From NCBI GenBank assembly GCA_015351705.1, contig JADIIM010000034.1:1-64000 (forward strand): a DNA stretch of 64,000 nucleotides, in the 5' to 3' direction. Under the pieces are notes generated by a model. It was not told the DNA's origin and made no database searches. It saw only the letters and a program-made list of their open reading frames with translations. Of the stretch, positions 2 through 37,318 are shown piece after piece. The DNA comes from Aeromicrobium sp. GTDB taxonomy: Bacteria; Actinomycetota; Coriobacteriia; Anaerosomatales; Anaerosomataceae. Each line of letters begins with the position of its first letter. The stretch's first letter is position 1. The position numbers and the translations under genes are program-made.

Positions 2-742
2 GTCGCCGCGCTCGCGCCGCCGCGGGTGGTGTGGGTGATGGTGCCGGCCGGCGAGCCCACCGAGGACATGCTCTTCGGCGAAGGCGGGCTGGTGGGCCTG
101 CTCGAGCCCGGCGACGTGGTGATCGACGGCGGCAACTCGTTCTGGCGTGACACGCTCGAGCGGGCGCCGCGGATCGTCTCGGCGGGGGTGCGGTTCCTGG
201 ACGTCGGCACGTCCGGCGGGCCGGGCGGCGCGCGGCACGGCGCGTGCCTGATGGTGGGTGGTCAGCGCGAGGACTTCGAGCGGCTCACGCACCTGTGGCG
301 CGACATCTCGGTTCCCGGCGGCTACGCGTTCTTCGAGGGCCACGGGGCGGGCCACTTCGTGAAGATGGTGCACAACGGCATCGAGTACGGCATGATGCAG
401 GCCATCGCCGAGGGCTTCACCGTGCTTCGTGCATCCGAGTACGGGATAGACCTCGGGCGTGCCGCCGGCATCTACAACCGCGGCAGCGTGATCGAGTCGC
501 GCCTGATCGGGTGGCTCGCCGAGGGACTCGAGGTGTTCGGCGAGGCGCTGGATGACGTCTCGGGCAGCGTGGGCCACACAGGCGAGGGCGCGTGGACGGT
601 CCAGACCGCCCGGGAACTCGGCGTTGAGCACCGCGCCATCCGCGACTCACTCGAGTTCAGGGTCGAGTCTGAGAGTTCCCCCAGCTACACGGGCAGGTTG
701 CTGCAGGCGATGCGCAACCGCTTCGGCGGGCACGCGCTGTAG
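2..742 (+). CDS. gnd: 6-phosphogluconate dehydrogenase (decarboxylating), 3' part
   Basis: The reading frame is open at the left edge, so the start codon and the Rossmann glycine motif lie outside the window. The product oxidatively decarboxylates 6-phosphogluconate to ribulose 5-phosphate in the cytosolic pentose phosphate pathway. Visible signatures are LAPPRVVWVMVPAGEPTE, the substrate loop GGNSFW, DVGTSGG, and the catalytic KMVHNGIEYG segment encoded near 360-392. The C-terminal helical part is short, which fits the compact, roughly 300-residue GndA/YqeC class rather than the 470-residue enzyme. A strong GC hairpin follows the stop. Cofactor preference cannot be judged because the N-terminus is missing. 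Confidence 0.93.
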   Translation, partial: VAALAPPRVVWVMVPAGEPTEDMLFGEGGLVGLLEPGDVVIDGGNSFWRDTLERAPRIVSAGVRFLDVGTSGGPGGARHGACLMVGGQREDFERLTHLWRDISVPGGYAFFEGHGAGHFVKMVHNGIEYGMMQAIAEGFTVLRASEYGIDLGRAAGIYNRGSVIESRLIGWLAEGLEVFGEALDDVSGSVGHTGEGAWTVQTARELGVEHRAIRDSLEFRVESESSPSYTGRLLQAMRNRFGGHAL

Positions 743-13432: not shown

Positions 13433-14365
13433 ATGATAGGAATGCGGAAGCGACATGGGCGGCTGTTCGCCGCTCTGGGCGTGGCGCTCGTTCTGGCGCT
13501 TGCCGGTATCGCCGGTGTCGGCTGCGCGGCCGATGACGGCGCGGACACCGGTGGCGACAACGGCGCCGCGGCTGGCGGGACGATCCGGATCGGCTGGATC
13601 CCGTGGGACGAGGACATCGCCGTCACGTACCTGTGGAAGCACATCCTCGAAGAAGAAGGCTACTCCGTGGAGCTGACCCAGCTCGACGTCGCGCCGGTGT
13701 TCGAGGGCGTTGCCAGCGGCGATCTGGACCTGTTCCTGGACGCGTGGTTGCCGTCCACCCACTCAGACTACTGGGCCGAGTACGGTGACCGGCTGGAGAG
13801 CCTGTCGGTGTGGTACGACAACGGCCTGCTCACCTGGGCGGTGCCCGAGTACCTCGATATCGACAGCATCGCCGACCTTGCCGGTCGCGCTGACGAGTTC
13901 GACGGCCGCATCGTCGGCATCGAGCCGGGCGCCGGCCTGACGCGCGTTTCGCGCGAGGACGTCATGCCCGGGTACGGTCTCGATGACTACGAGCTCGTCG
14001 AGGGCTCGACGCCTGCCATGCTCGCCGAGCTCGATCGCGCCACCAAGAACGAGGCGCCGATCGTCGTGACGCTCTGGCGTCCGCACTGGGCTTACAGCGT
14101 CTTCCCGATCAAGGACCTTGCCGACCCCGAGGGCCTTCTCGGCGAGGCCGAGGAGATCCACACCGTGGCGCGCCTTGGCTTTGCCGATGACTTCCCCGAG
14201 GTCGCTGGCTGGCTCGAGGCGTTCCTGATGGACGACGACCAGCTTGCGGGCCTCGAGGACCTCGTTCTCAACGAGTACGGTGCGGGCCAGGAAGAGGCGG
14301 CCGTTGAAGAGTGGCTGACCGACCCGGCCCACCGTGCGCTCGTGGACGGATGGCTCGGCAGGTAG
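13433..14365 (+). CDS. proX: glycine betaine-binding lipoprotein
   Basis: This encodes 310 residues. A lipoprotein signal (LAGIAGVGC lipobox) anchors it to the outer face of the membrane. The mature part is an OpuAC-type solute-binding domain beginning IRIGWIPWDEDIAVTYLWK, with DLFLDAWLPSTHSDYW and PIVVTLWRPHWAYS supplying the aromatic cage residues expected for quaternary amines. The start at 13433 is chosen because GGGAG lies seven nt upstream; an earlier ATG at 13403 would place 10 extra residues before the signal. It ends the operon, followed by a strong terminator. Confidence 0.95.
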   Translation: MIGMRKRHGRLFAALGVALVLALAGIAGVGCAADDGADTGGDNGAAAGGTIRIGWIPWDEDIAVTYLWKHILEEEGYSVELTQLDVAPVFEGVASGDLDLFLDAWLPSTHSDYWAEYGDRLESLSVWYDNGLLTWAVPEYLDIDSIADLAGRADEFDGRIVGIEPGAGLTRVSREDVMPGYGLDDYELVEGSTPAMLAELDRATKNEAPIVVTLWRPHWAYSVFPIKDLADPEGLLGEAEEIHTVARLGFADDFPEVAGWLEAFLMDDDQLAGLEDLVLNEYGAGQEEAAVEEWLTDPAHRALVDGWLGR

Positions 14366-14389
14366 CCGAGGACACCCTGCGGGAAACGA

Positions 14390-14422
14390 ACGGCCCCCTG
14401 TCCCGTGCGGACAGGGGGCCGT
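14390..14422. terminator. strong hairpin terminator between convergent operons
   Basis: A 14-bp perfect stem (ACGGCCCCCTGTCC and its complement) with a five-nt loop lies 25 nt after proX. It is convergent with the operon ending at 14479, so it may serve both. No long T tract follows. Confidence 0.8.
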
Positions 14423-14478
14423 CGTGTCGCATGGCCGGTGCGCGTAGTGCAACGACCGTCCCGGTCTGCCGCGTCCGC

Positions 14479-14769
14479 TCAGGCCTGCACGGGCACTGCG
14501 GCGTCGGGGCGGGGCACTGTACCACGCTTGATCTTCGAGAAGACCATGAAGAAGTACGGGATCGCCGCGATGTTCGCGAACAGGATGAGCAGCACCCAGA
14601 GCAGCCGGTTGTTGCTCGTGGGAGTGGCGTTCGGGTACTCCCACTCCTCGCGCAGCACCGAGTCGATCAGCATCCAGAGCCACAGCACCGGCGCCGCAAG
14701 CGTGAGCAGCCCGATCGCAAGGCCGAGCGAGCCCATGCTCATGCCGAAAAGCCAGCCGAACAGTTCCAT
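14479..14769 (-). CDS. small PLDc_N-type membrane protein
   Basis: This encodes 96 residues with two or three membrane helices. The segment LWLWMLIDSVLREEWEYP followed by NNRLLWVLLILFANIAAIPYFF matches the pattern of the PLDc_N domain, the membrane part found before some phospholipase D/cardiolipin synthase enzymes and as stand-alone small proteins. AAAGGA lies eleven nt before the ATG. It is the last gene of the minus-strand PadR operon, 58 nt after the lipoprotein gene, so a role in envelope homeostasis is plausible. No catalytic domain is present. Confidence 0.82.
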   Translation of the reverse strand: MELFGWLFGMSMGSLGLAIGLLTLAAPVLWLWMLIDSVLREEWEYPNATPTSNNRLLWVLLILFANIAAIPYFFMVFSKIKRGTVPRPDAAVPVQA

Positions 14770-14827
14770 CGCCGTGCACGTCCTTTCCGTTCTGTCGAGC
14801 AGACCGTTCTCCGGCCCGCGGGTCGTC

Positions 14828-15574
14828 CTATTCCACTGTCTCCACGGTCACGTCGCCGATGCCGCGCCGCAGCGTGATCTCGAAGCGAACATCCGCGTCA
14901 TCGTACGCGCGGTTGACCAGCGCGCCACCGTCCTGGATGAATCCGTCGGCCTGGTAGCTGCCGAGCCCGTCCTGGTGCCCGACGATCCGCACGCCCACAT
15001 CTGCAGGGACCCTCAATGTGAACGCGCCTGCGCCGCCGTTGATGTCGGCCACCATGTCGTGGGTGGGCTCTCCGCCCGAGAGGTCGATCGTGGAGTCTCC
15101 CGCGCCCATGTTCACCTGGAGGCGCCTGAGGTCGAGCGTGCCGAGGTCGAGTCGACTCTCACCGGCGCCCATGTTGATGGACAGGTCGAGCGGCATGTCG
15201 TCGGGCAGTGCGATGTCCCATGCGTACCGCATCTGACCGGTGAGGTTCAGGCCGAAGGTGGGCCCGCTGGGGGTGCGGACCGCGAGCCGTCCTTCGCCAC
15301 CGCTCACCTCATAGCTCACCTGAGGCCGCCACCTTTCGTCGCTGAACTCGAAGTCCGCGTCCATGACGTCGGCAGCGCCGCCCGAAACGCTGAGCTGTCC
15401 CGCGCCCATGTCGATCGTGGCCACGAGCTCGGTCGCGCCGTCCCGGGGGATCGTGTCGGTGTCCGACGTGTACTCGGGAGCAGGCATCTCCACGCGGACG
15501 CAGCCGCTGGCCGCGATGAGCGCGGCGGCGAGCAGTCCTGCCGCGAGGACACGGGGGGTGATGCTGGTCGTCAT
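14828..15574 (-). CDS. lipoprotein with LiaF/DUF4097-like beta domain
   Basis: This encodes 248 residues. The N-terminus has a lipoprotein signal (AALIAASGC). The mature domain is a beta-solenoid-like adhesin/toastrack fold with repeating INMGAGES, VNMGAGDS and INGGAGAF turns, as in DUF2154/DUF4097 and LiaF-type proteins that sense or respond to envelope stress. The start at 15574 is favoured by GAAGGAGA nine nt upstream; an ATG at 15601 that overlaps the preceding stop would give 257 residues and translational coupling. Exact function unknown. Confidence 0.86.
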   Translation of the reverse strand: MTTSITPRVLAAGLLAAALIAASGCVRVEMPAPEYTSDTDTIPRDGATELVATIDMGAGQLSVSGGAADVMDADFEFSDERWRPQVSYEVSGGEGRLAVRTPSGPTFGLNLTGQMRYAWDIALPDDMPLDLSINMGAGESRLDLGTLDLRRLQVNMGAGDSTIDLSGGEPTHDMVADINGGAGAFTLRVPADVGVRIVGHQDGLGSYQADGFIQDGGALVNRAYDDADVRFEITLRRGIGDVTVETVE

Positions 15575-15600
15575 TGTGGTTCTCTCCTTCAGGGTCGTCA

Positions 15601-16485
15601 TCACTGGTTCGTGTCGGCGTACCGGCCGACGAGGAGTGCTTTGGCGTATGTGGCGTGCATCGCGCCGATACCTCGGCATAGGTGCAGGGTGAGCACGAAG
15701 CCGAGCAGACCGAGAGCGATCACCGGGACGGTCGCCCATGGCTCGAGCACGTAGCCGTATCCGCCCCACTGGATCAGGGGATAGTCGGTCAACGCCTGGG
15801 CCACCGGCAGCGCGACAGTCGTGGCCGACAGCGTGGCGGCGACCGTCACGATCGTGAAGTACACGATTCCGAGCGGGAGCTGGAGCACCATGTACAGGAT
15901 GCTCGTCCACGTCCGCCAATCGGTGAGCCAGTGCTTCACGCGGGTGAACACGTCGCCCTCGGTGAGCGCGCTTCGCGGTCGCCGGGGCATGCGCACGCCG
16001 AGGAGCACCTCGATCAGTCGTCCCTCGGCGAGCGAGAGTGCGCGCACGATGGCGAAGAAGAGCAGCAGCACGAGCACGCCCACACCGATCGGCAGAAGGC
16101 CGAGGCCGGTGGGCAGCAGCGCCGCCACGATCGTGAAGTACGCGATGCCGGTGAGCAGCGACAGAACGAGGTAGAACAGCGCGCCGTAGCTGCGCGCATC
16201 GGTGACCACGCCGAAGAACCTCGCCGCCGGACCACGCTCGACCGCAGGTCGCGGAGTGTGCAGGGCCTGGGCCACCGTGATCTCGGTCTCCAGGTAGGCC
16301 GCAGCGACCTCCTCGGGCGTTCCGTAGCGCTCCACGATCTCGGCGAAGCACTCCTCGTCTCCCTCAGGACACGAGGCCATCTCCGAGCGGAGGTACTCCT
16401 CGGCGTCGTACAGTGCGTCGTGCACGAGTGCGGGGTCGGCCCCGGAAAGCGCCGCCTTGAGCCCCTGCAGGTATCCGTCGATCAT
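15601..16485 (-). CDS. HAAS domain plus putative sensor domain membrane protein
   Basis: This encodes 294 residues. Residues 1-70 form a HAAS/DUF1700-like helical domain (ALYDAEEYLRSEMAS, then EIVERYGTPEEVAAAYL). Residues 85-285 are a membrane 'putative sensor' domain with paired hydrophobic hairpins (SLLTGIAYFTIVAALLPTG, LQLPLGIVYFTIVTVAATL). HAAS proteins are typically encoded with PadR regulators, exactly as here: the ATG is one nt after the PadR stop. The likely role is a membrane sensor or modulator of the envelope response. There is no kinase domain. Confidence 0.88.
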   Translation of the reverse strand: MIDGYLQGLKAALSGADPALVHDALYDAEEYLRSEMASCPEGDEECFAEIVERYGTPEEVAAAYLETEITVAQALHTPRPAVERGPAARFFGVVTDARSYGALFYLVLSLLTGIAYFTIVAALLPTGLGLLPIGVGVLVLLLFFAIVRALSLAEGRLIEVLLGVRMPRRPRSALTEGDVFTRVKHWLTDWRTWTSILYMVLQLPLGIVYFTIVTVAATLSATTVALPVAQALTDYPLIQWGGYGYVLEPWATVPVIALGLLGFVLTLHLCRGIGAMHATYAKALLVGRYADTNQ

Positions 16486-16486
16486 C

Positions 16487-16855
16487 TCAGCCCCGACCCC
16501 CTTCCAGTGTCGCGTCCACGAACGTTCTCATCCGGTCCCATACGTCGGTCCACGCAGTGAGCACCGCCTCGCCCTCGGCGGTGATCGTGTAGTACTTCCG
16601 GGGCGGCCCGCTCACCGACGGTTCCACTCTGCTGGCGAGCAGCCCCTGTCCTTCGAGCGAGCGGAGCACCGGATACAGCGTGCCCTGCTTGACGGCCATG
16701 CCCTCTGCCGAGGCGGCTTCGAGCAGCTTGGCGATCTGGTAGCCGTACAGCGGTTCGCCCGAGCGCTTGAGCACCGCGAGCAGGACGAGCGCCACGGTGC
16801 CGGCGTTGAGCTCCTTCTGGAACTTGCGTACGGCGATGTCCGCGCTCTCGGTCAC
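16487..16855 (-). CDS. PadR-family transcriptional repressor
   Basis: This encodes 122 residues. A winged helix of PadR type is clear (LLAVLKRSGEPLYGYQIAKL, then AVKQGTLYPVLRSLEGQGLL and the wing RKYYTITAEGEA), with a short C-terminal dimerisation helix. It starts at GTG with AAGGAGGTG upstream. It heads a minus-strand operon with the HAAS, toastrack lipoprotein and PLDc_N genes. The promoter region carries repeated palindromic elements, so autorepression of the operon, relieved by an envelope or chemical signal, is the likely mode. Confidence 0.94.
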   Translation of the reverse strand: MTESADIAVRKFQKELNAGTVALVLLAVLKRSGEPLYGYQIAKLLEAASAEGMAVKQGTLYPVLRSLEGQGLLASRVEPSVSGPPRKYYTITAEGEAVLTAWTDVWDRMRTFVDATLEGGRG

Positions 16856-16892
16856 CGGGCTCCACCTCCTTCGGTCTCCTCGACGCTATTAA

Positions 16893-19366
<2,474 letters not shown>

Positions 19367-36170: not shown

Positions 36171-36611
36171 TCACGCGCAGAAGACGCGGATGTTGTCGCC
36201 GTCGGCCGAGTGCACGTTGATCTCCATCTCGCGGAGACTCTGGATGAGCTCCTCGATGTCCTCCGGCTTCAGGTTGTTGAAGTCGATCGACATGCCGTGC
36301 TCACCCATCGACTCGCTGATCTGGTCCATCGCCTGCGGCGGGATCAATGACGTCAGCTTCAGGCCGGCGCGCAGCAGGCCGAGCGGCACCTTGACGTCCA
36401 CCGTGTCCTTACCCGTGACCTTCACGTACAGGAACTTCGGGGTGCCGGTGGCCGAAGGTCCGGTGGGCCAGTCGTCAGACGGCATCGGCTCGCGAGACGG
36501 CGTCGCCTCTGACGCCGGCGTGCCGAGCGAGTCCAGGAGCAGGTCGGCCTCCTCGGCGGTGATCTTGCCCTCGGCCAGCATGCCGAGGATGCGCTTGCGG
36601 TCTTCGCTCAT
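36171..36611 (-). CDS. SHOCT-like domain protein (DUF2089 operon)
   Basis: This encodes 146 residues. Residues 1-30 form a SHOCT-like helical hairpin (RKRILGMLAEGKITAEEADLL). A Pro/Ser-rich linker (about 31-56) leads to a C-terminal domain with FLYVKVTGKDTVDVKVPLGL and ELIQSLREMEINVHS, resembling the cytoplasmic domains of LiaX/YvlB-like envelope-stress proteins. It is the third gene of a minus-strand operon led by a DUF2089 regulator. Probably cytoplasmic; function inferred only from context. Confidence 0.82.
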   Translation of the reverse strand: MSEDRKRILGMLAEGKITAEEADLLLDSLGTPASEATPSREPMPSDDWPTGPSATGTPKFLYVKVTGKDTVDVKVPLGLLRAGLKLTSLIPPQAMDQISESMGEHGMSIDFNNLKPEDIEELIQSLREMEINVHSADGDNIRVFCA

Positions 36612-36630
36612 GGTGGTGACTTCCTTTCTG

Positions 36631-36921
36631 TCAGTAGATGTCGACTTTGACGAAGCTGTCTTCGGTCACCGCGTCCACATGGGTACCGCGGACCTCGGCA
36701 AGGACGCGCAGTGAGCCGAGAACGAGTCGCGTGTAGTGGTGGTACCGCGCGCCCGACGCAAGGAGCGCAAGATCGACGAGCAGCGTGACGATGAGCGTCA
36801 GCACGAGCAGCGGGAGCAGCAGCGGCCACAGCAGCACGATCGGCAGCCACAGGCGGAACCCTCTCGCGCCGGCCTCGCGAACGCGCACGCGGATCATGAG
36901 CGGGGGCAGGTAGGCGTTCAT
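36631..36921 (-). CDS. small membrane protein (DUF2089 operon)
   Basis: This encodes 96 residues. A basic N-terminus (MIRVRVREAGARGFRLW) is followed by one long or two short membrane helices (LPIVLLWPLLLPLLVLTLIV and TLLVDLALLASGA) and a soluble tail ending SFVKVDIY. The ATG overlaps the stop of the DUF2089 gene (ATGA). It probably works with the DUF2089 and SHOCT-like proteins in an envelope-related response. No precise family recognised. Confidence 0.8.
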   Translation of the reverse strand: MNAYLPPLMIRVRVREAGARGFRLWLPIVLLWPLLLPLLVLTLIVTLLVDLALLASGARYHHYTRLVLGSLRVLAEVRGTHVDAVTEDSFVKVDIY

Positions 36922-37289
36922 CGCCGCATCCTCTTCGCAGCTTCGCTCGCGCTGATCTCGCCACGCTCCAGCAGGTCCAGCACCTCATCGCGCGGCTCCG
37001 GTGTGGGCTCGATCTCGACCTCGACGAGCGCGAGGCGCGCGGCGATGCGGTTGAGCCGGTTCTTGATCGTGGGGTAGCTCACGCCGAACGCCTTCTCCAT
37101 CTGCTTGATCGAGCCGTGGGACCGCACGAACTCTCCGACGAAGACCTGGTCCTCATAGCGGAGCCGCGCCAGCGGCGGGAGGTCGAACTCGCCGTCGATG
37201 CCGATGTCCGTCTCCTTCAGGCGAATACCGGTGACGACGAAGTCGCGGTCTCCGGTGAGGTCGGTCAGGTCGTGCCAATCACGTGCCAT
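36918..37289 (-). CDS. DUF2089-family transcriptional regulator
   Basis: This encodes 123 residues. The central part is a helix-turn-helix (FVRSHGSIKQMEKAFGVSYP, then TIKNRLNRI) as in DUF2089 proteins. The last 28 residues (RDEVLDLLERGEISASEAAKRM) repeat the SHOCT-like hairpin seen at the start of the 36171-36611 product. Its N-terminus lacks the zinc ribbon found in longer members. AAGGGAG precedes the ATG at 37289. It heads the operon and probably binds the duplicated sites over its own promoter. Confidence 0.88.
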   Translation of the reverse strand: MARDWHDLTDLTGDRDFVVTGIRLKETDIGIDGEFDLPPLARLRYEDQVFVGEFVRSHGSIKQMEKAFGVSYPTIKNRLNRIAARLALVEVEIEPTPEPRDEVLDLLERGEISASEAAKRMRR

Positions 37290-37318
37290 GGTCTCACTCC
37301 CTTTCAGCAATCATGAGC

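Follow-up and report, generated by a model that had tools for sequence, protein, structure and literature searches.

A PadR/HAAS-Sensor operon with a predicted outward-facing toastrack lipoprotein as a candidate kinase-free membrane-to-DNA switch

Introduction

How might a signal pass from the membrane to a promoter when the operon concerned encodes a repressor and a membrane sensor and no kinase? The question is raised by four genes in the 64,000-nucleotide stretch of DNA analysed here (hereafter the window), which read on the minus strand from 16855 to 14479 in the order PadR, HAAS-Sensor protein, toastrack lipoprotein and 96-aa membrane protein (Table 1). A HAAS-PadR dyad with toastrack partners has been proposed as a substitute for two-component systems (PMC11237479, mSystems 2024), and the passages of that paper available to us describe the HAAS domain as always paired with PadR. 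We found no demonstrated mechanism for the dyad in the literature.

Table 1. Features of the operon and of a second cluster, in positions of the window.
Feature	Position	Strand	Evidence
padR: PadR-family winged-helix repressor, 122 aa	16487..16855	-	PF03551 E 7.9e-22 (Pfam)
HAAS-Sensor membrane protein, 294 aa	15601..16485	-	HAAS residues 5-63, PF13796 Sensor 105-285, four predicted membrane helices
Toastrack lipoprotein, 248 aa	14828..15574	-	PF17115 Toast_rack_N E 1.2e-17; structure model
Small PLDc_N-like membrane protein, 96 aa	14479..14769	-	PF13396 19.9 bits, cut-off 23.3
Candidate operator box 1, palindromic, within promoter	16918..16940	-	comparative footprint
Candidate operator box 2, 33 bp downstream of box 1	16885..16907	-	comparative footprint
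Promoter-like site TTGACT-16-TATTCT	16916..16943	-	one hit in 14340-17020, against 0.3 expected by shuffling
Codons of the sensor's predicted outer loop (residues 231-250; sliding window 230-249)	15736..15795	-	conserved in Coriobacteriia, not in Lysobacterales-type sequences
Lipobox cysteine codon, residue 25	15500..15502	-	invariant in 11/11 aligned sequences
Second cluster	36171-37310		DUF2089-type HTH protein (E 1.8e-17), 96-aa protein without family match, SHOCT-like protein

Gene Content and Conservation of the Operon

An earlier reading of the letters alone (the sequence-only reading) had delimited four genes at 14479-16855, and all four open reading frames are present on the minus strand with exactly those coordinates. 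They are closely packed, with padR ending at 16487 and the sensor gene starting at 16485, followed by gaps of 26 and 58 bp. No kinase gene lies within the four-gene operon, and together with the Pfam families this bears out the description of the locus as a kinase-free operon of repressor, membrane sensor and toastrack protein. The N-terminal domain of the membrane protein matches HAAS (PF22564, E 3.3e-7, 31.0 bits, cut-off 27) and is encoded beside a stand-alone PadR gene, which is the arrangement of the HAAS-PadR dyad; the remainder matches Sensor (PF13796) at E 1.7e-27. Between the convergent genes beyond the operon's end, inspection by eye shows a G+C-rich inverted repeat (14392-14420) whose 12-bp arms match perfectly around a 5-base loop; it has no T run, is absent from the output of the scan that gave the promoter-like site, and is perhaps a terminator for both genes.

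The last gene had been read as lipid-enzyme-like, and this part did not hold. PLDc_N is a non-catalytic segment, and the match to this membrane segment is weak and below the cut-off (a relative, L112, scores 27.6 bits, above it), while no HxK catalytic motif is seen by eye in the 96-aa protein. On these two grounds we rejected its assignment as a phospholipase D or cardiolipin synthase.

The HAAS-Sensor protein occurs in 30 of 61 genomes, the source genome included. PadR adjoins the sensor gene in 28 of the 29 relatives (E<=1e-3); in the other (G033) padR is partly N-masked and the match is to the PadR tail only. A toastrack gene is found in 24 of these relatives and a PLDc_N-like gene in 22, while in four (G039, G041, G050, G057) a DUF2807 lipoprotein occupies the toastrack slot and in one (G016) neither slot protein was found beside the sensor. 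The operon of G046 is divided between two contigs, and a stop interrupts the sensor gene of G044. The outer neighbour, tadA, is common to only 4 of the 29 relatives, so the four genes move as a unit rather than through general synteny. Conservation of the gene set far exceeds chance. Gene order is likewise kept in the relatives, a broken order being what the sequence-only reading had named as evidence against itself.

That reading had also pointed to a second, analogous repressor/membrane/LiaX-like cluster at 36.2-37.3 kb. The genes there are real, but they are only loosely analogous, lacking both PadR and toastrack; we rejected LiaX, which scores 10.6 bits against a cut-off of 350 (NCBIfam). 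The cluster resembles DUF2089 contexts shown in the accessible parts of PMC11237479, with the toastrack missing here. Elsewhere in the source genome, L096 (G000:C22):194-1514 holds a second PadR-HAAS pair, in which HAAS is fused to DUF5808 and DUF1648 and which is without the first pair's operator. A link to the PSP system via PspA was also rejected, as the source genome (96.75% complete) has no PspA match; 4 of the 61 genomes carry one.

A Candidate Operator Shared Across Phyla

Palindromes resembling ACTAGTGTGAASTTCACASTA are common to the padR upstream regions of the relatives, and in the window the footprint places a putative operator within the operon's own promoter, as in PadR-type autoregulated operons. 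The region has a single promoter-like site, and box 1 overlaps it. In 23 of 30 upstream regions the two boxes stand exactly 33 bp apart, and a separate look at G033, which the upstream-region search had missed, shows two boxes at this same distance.

The strict pattern ACTAGTGTGRANTT has 29 sites in the 61 genomes, 28 of which precede this operon. These sites are spread over 20 genomes, every one with the operon, and none falls in the 31 genomes that lack the sensor; the reversed-control pattern has no site in any of the 61. A looser pattern is present in all 30 genomes with HAAS-Sensor and in 1 of the 31 without (12 hits in total for its reversed control). We take that single site, in G032, as chance.

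An operator matrix was built from 28 of the 30 Coriobacteriia upstream regions and tested on loci outside this training set. Ahead of padR, 54 of 66 gammaproteobacterial-type loci score above the 99.9th percentile of 5,035 control windows, and 60 score above the 99th; most of the 66 bear the label Lysobacterales (Xanthomonas, Dyella, Rhodanobacter and others). In G063, a genome further removed within the phylum, the PadR is 57% identical and has a 25.9-bit site upstream. From these sequence scores, the operator code appears to be still readable between Actinomycetota and Gammaproteobacteria. In a mostly open-access literature, taken without supplements, we found no paper describing this operator, no PadR work of apparent relevance for Xanthomonas or Stenotrophomonas, and no paper that combines PadR with the operator letters.

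In the source genome no PadR target other than the operon itself is clear. Allowing <=3 mismatches returns three operon rows (one of which is box 1 on the opposite strand) and C59:19593, a weak 3-mismatch site that is the sole match outside the operon, and the matrix scan found no operator at the two other PadR gene loci. Across 16 Lysobacterales-type genomes, sites with <=2 mismatches are no commoner than in the reversed control, and 7 of these genomes have one 0-mismatch site each. Three relatives (G033, G046, G028) have an extra operator before an FtsX-type permease gene; the permeases of G028 and G033 share 66% identity, and that of G046 combines MacB_PCD and FtsX and is followed by an ABC ATPase. 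The strongest hint of a place for the switch in membrane or drug stress is the operator before exporter genes. The envelope-stress role that the sequence-only reading had in mind would be helped by these same MacB/FtsX genes.

The exporter genes of the three relatives also fit one-component drug sensing, in which PadR would bind a toxic compound directly and the membrane proteins, HAAS-Sensor included, would merely be regulated output. LmrR-type PadR proteins bind toxic compounds directly. Some PadR proteins answer antibiotics, as LftR does aurantimycin in the portion of that work available to us, and in Listeria the gene behind the phenotype encodes a membrane protein, according to the available part of PMC6624303. 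We nevertheless consider this account unlikely, given that HAAS is described as always occurring with PadR (PMC11237479, in part), that PF13796 is otherwise a kinase input module, and that no exporter gene of the source genome has the operator.

The Membrane Sensor as a Probable Input Module

The sensor protein has its HAAS domain at the N-terminus, followed by the four membrane helices (AlphaFold2 model, mean pLDDT 87.9). Basic residues gather in the loop 163-189, and neither outer loop has such a cluster, from which the N-terminus and HAAS are predicted to lie inside. Foldseek gave no match to this model at E<=0.001, and the best VIA-align Z was 5.7. The Sensor part looks like a possible internal duplication, with TGIAYFTIV and LGIVYFTIV as recurring segments of helices 1 and 3 (about residues 96-118 and 189-212).

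PF13796 is found at E<=0.001 in 9 of 60 sampled genomes of the phylum. Nine of the ten PF13796 proteins scanned also carry HisKA_3 (eight of these with PF13796 above its cut-off), and the tenth is of the HAAS type. Judged by domain architecture, PF13796 is one input module with two outputs, a kinase and HAAS, in agreement with the published proposal.

The Toastrack Lipoprotein and Its Side of the Membrane

The third protein is identified as a toastrack by its match to Toast_rack_N (64.3 bits, cut-off 22) together with its fold: the model (mean pLDDT 87.6) superimposes on PDB 4QRK with Z 29.9 and rmsd 1.6 over 211 residues, and a profile search also finds the 4QRK chain at E 4.7e-56. We rejected LiaF as its identity, the LiaF-like C-terminal model being below the cut-off in both Pfam (25.9 vs 29 bits) and NCBIfam (29 vs 57 bits).

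A lipobox cysteine stands behind a hydrophobic stretch in 26 of the relatives' 27 slot proteins with a readable N-terminus (23 toastrack and 4 DUF2807), as is characteristic of a lipoprotein; G056 is missing the cysteine and retains a hydrophobic N-terminal anchor. This supports the sequence-only reading's placement of the toastrack on a lipoprotein, hence outside. The toastrack here should accordingly be predicted to face outward, unlike the domain that the available passages of PMC11237479 argue to be intracellular, a view repeated in those of PMC12791056. By its sequence, the family appears to be a conserved exception to that view, and in mostly open-access literature we found no paper that places an outward-facing toastrack lipoprotein in an operon of this type. 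No ligand evidence was found either, including for the lipid II-targeting agents that had been suggested as its signal.

The published proposal (PMC11237479, in part) would instead keep the toastrack at the inner face of the membrane, where it would be an assembly platform beside HAAS and PadR. The other toastrack-like protein of the source genome, L097 (G000:C58):4336-6144, is in keeping with this, since it has N-terminal LiaF-type membrane helices before its toastrack-like C-terminal part and is encoded beside a PspC gene. With the lipobox cysteine so widely kept, and an anchor even in its one exception, we regard an inner-side location in this operon as very improbable. L097 matches the window's toastrack at E 1.4e-7, and there is no kinase gene among the open reading frames listed around it; both kinds of toastrack may therefore coexist in one genome.

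Two further proteins were observed at other loci. At L113:5978-7069 a toastrack lipoprotein has a long proline/alanine-rich C-terminal tail, as if spanning the wall. In a read-through translation of L091, downstream of 524, a repeat-rich frame resembling a bactofilin-type beta-solenoid comes after an HTH-like frame.

Does the lipoprotein contact the sensor? In sequence pairs chosen to be alike in overall identity (0.55 and 0.57, with gaps scored as mismatches), identity in the predicted outer loop is 0.39 in 29 Coriobacteriia vs 0.10 in 66 Lysobacterales-type sequences. The resulting ratio of 0.25 is the lowest among all sliding windows, for which the median is 1.07. All 67 Lysobacterales-type loci are without toastrack, DUF2807 or PLDc_N-like genes in their flanks (tblastn; some flanks end at contig ends). 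Conservation of the loop where the lipoprotein is encoded suggests that the two may be in contact, with the proviso that this is a single lineage contrast in which the differing envelopes of the two lineages are a confounder. Coriobacteriia and Lysobacterales-type lineages do have different envelopes.

The same 67 loci show that the lipoprotein is not a general part of the relay, the dyad being present there without it. They also lend themselves to an output-only account: the toastrack lipoprotein and its small membrane neighbour would be response products, such as a protective coat or a wall-membrane spacer, and would make no contact with a sensor acting alone. Both proteins are absent there while the operator is the same, and the toastrack slot can be exchanged for DUF2807. 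The conservation of the outer loop only where a lipoprotein is encoded speaks against this account, although one lineage contrast cannot settle the matter, and we see it as possible but on balance rather doubtful.

Proposed Mechanism

We lean slightly toward the operon being a self-contained, autoregulated and kinase-free switch from membrane to DNA. PadR dimers would bind the palindromic operator over the operon promoter, a site located by comparative footprint and usually duplicated about three helical turns apart, and would keep the promoter off. The four-helix membrane partner would take its input through PF13796 and give its output through a cytosolic HAAS domain, and upon membrane perturbation HAAS would act on PadR, as the published proposal for HAAS implies. 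Derepression would then yield more repressor and sensor, the outer-face toastrack lipoprotein and the small membrane protein. The lipoprotein might touch the sensor's outer loop and tune or shut off the signal, as loop conservation would have it, in addition to any protection it gives. A MacB-type exporter gene is also preceded by this operator in some relatives.

The gene set, the operator, the lipobox, the domain swap between kinase and HAAS, and the loop contrast are all features of the sequences themselves. Favouring the switch are an operon that is kept as its flanks change, the specificity of the operator, the PF13796-kinase fusions, a topology with HAAS inside, the lipobox, the loop contrast and derepression in Listeria. 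Counting against it are the Lysobacterales-type dyads without lipoprotein, a Listeria phenotype that comes from the membrane protein, and a loop contrast drawn from a single pair of lineages.

A more far-reaching idea, which we advance tentatively and think has rather less than an even chance, is that the outward beta-solenoid lipoprotein, whether toastrack or DUF2807, is an exchangeable co-receptor. It would dock on the outer loop of HAAS-Sensor in an envelope-spanning, kinase-free relay to PadR, with an operator code readable from Actinomycetota to Gammaproteobacteria. If this is true, toastracks would function at the inner and the outer face of the membrane alike. Already, the operon argues against a general statement of intracellular toastrack domains. 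It also makes the HAAS-PadR dyad testable, with a twin operator found across phyla, a sensor domain that exists in kinase and HAAS versions, and an outside lipoprotein whose presence goes along with conservation of a 20-residue outer loop.

Comparison with Known Systems

The closest counterpart is the dyad of PMC11237479, which in the passages available to us shares with this operon a PadR gene beside that of a HAAS-membrane protein, a toastrack gene, and the lack of both pspA and a kinase. It differs in that the toastrack is taken as intracellular there and is a conserved lipoprotein here; those passages do not mention the operator, the lipobox or PF13796.

The lltR-lmo0600-lmo0601 operon of Listeria monocytogenes likewise combines PadR, a membrane protein and an exoprotein in one autoregulated operon, according to the part of PMC6624303 at hand, but it has three genes, and its families are DUF1700 and DUF4097 as against PF13796 and Toast_rack_N here. 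In the same part of that paper, lmo0600 and lmo0601 are derepressed more than 100-fold in an lltR mutant, whose cold sensitivity is due to the membrane protein Lmo0600 and not to the toastrack-like protein. By analogy, these data support PadR repression in operons of this kind.

With the PF13796-HisKA_3 histidine kinases of Actinomycetota the operon shares the Sensor input; the two differ in output, a kinase in those proteins and HAAS in the operon. Toastrack proteins of the LiaF/VraT type have the same fold, and a weak LiaF_C match is seen here, whereas the operon's protein has a lipobox and no LiaF-type helices, and the operon contains no two-component pair. The putative cell adhesion protein CLOSPO_03726 (PDB 4QRK) matches the fold of the toastrack protein over nearly its whole length. 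This kind of operon has thus been published already, and the details that are new are the predicted outward lipoprotein and the widely conserved candidate operator.
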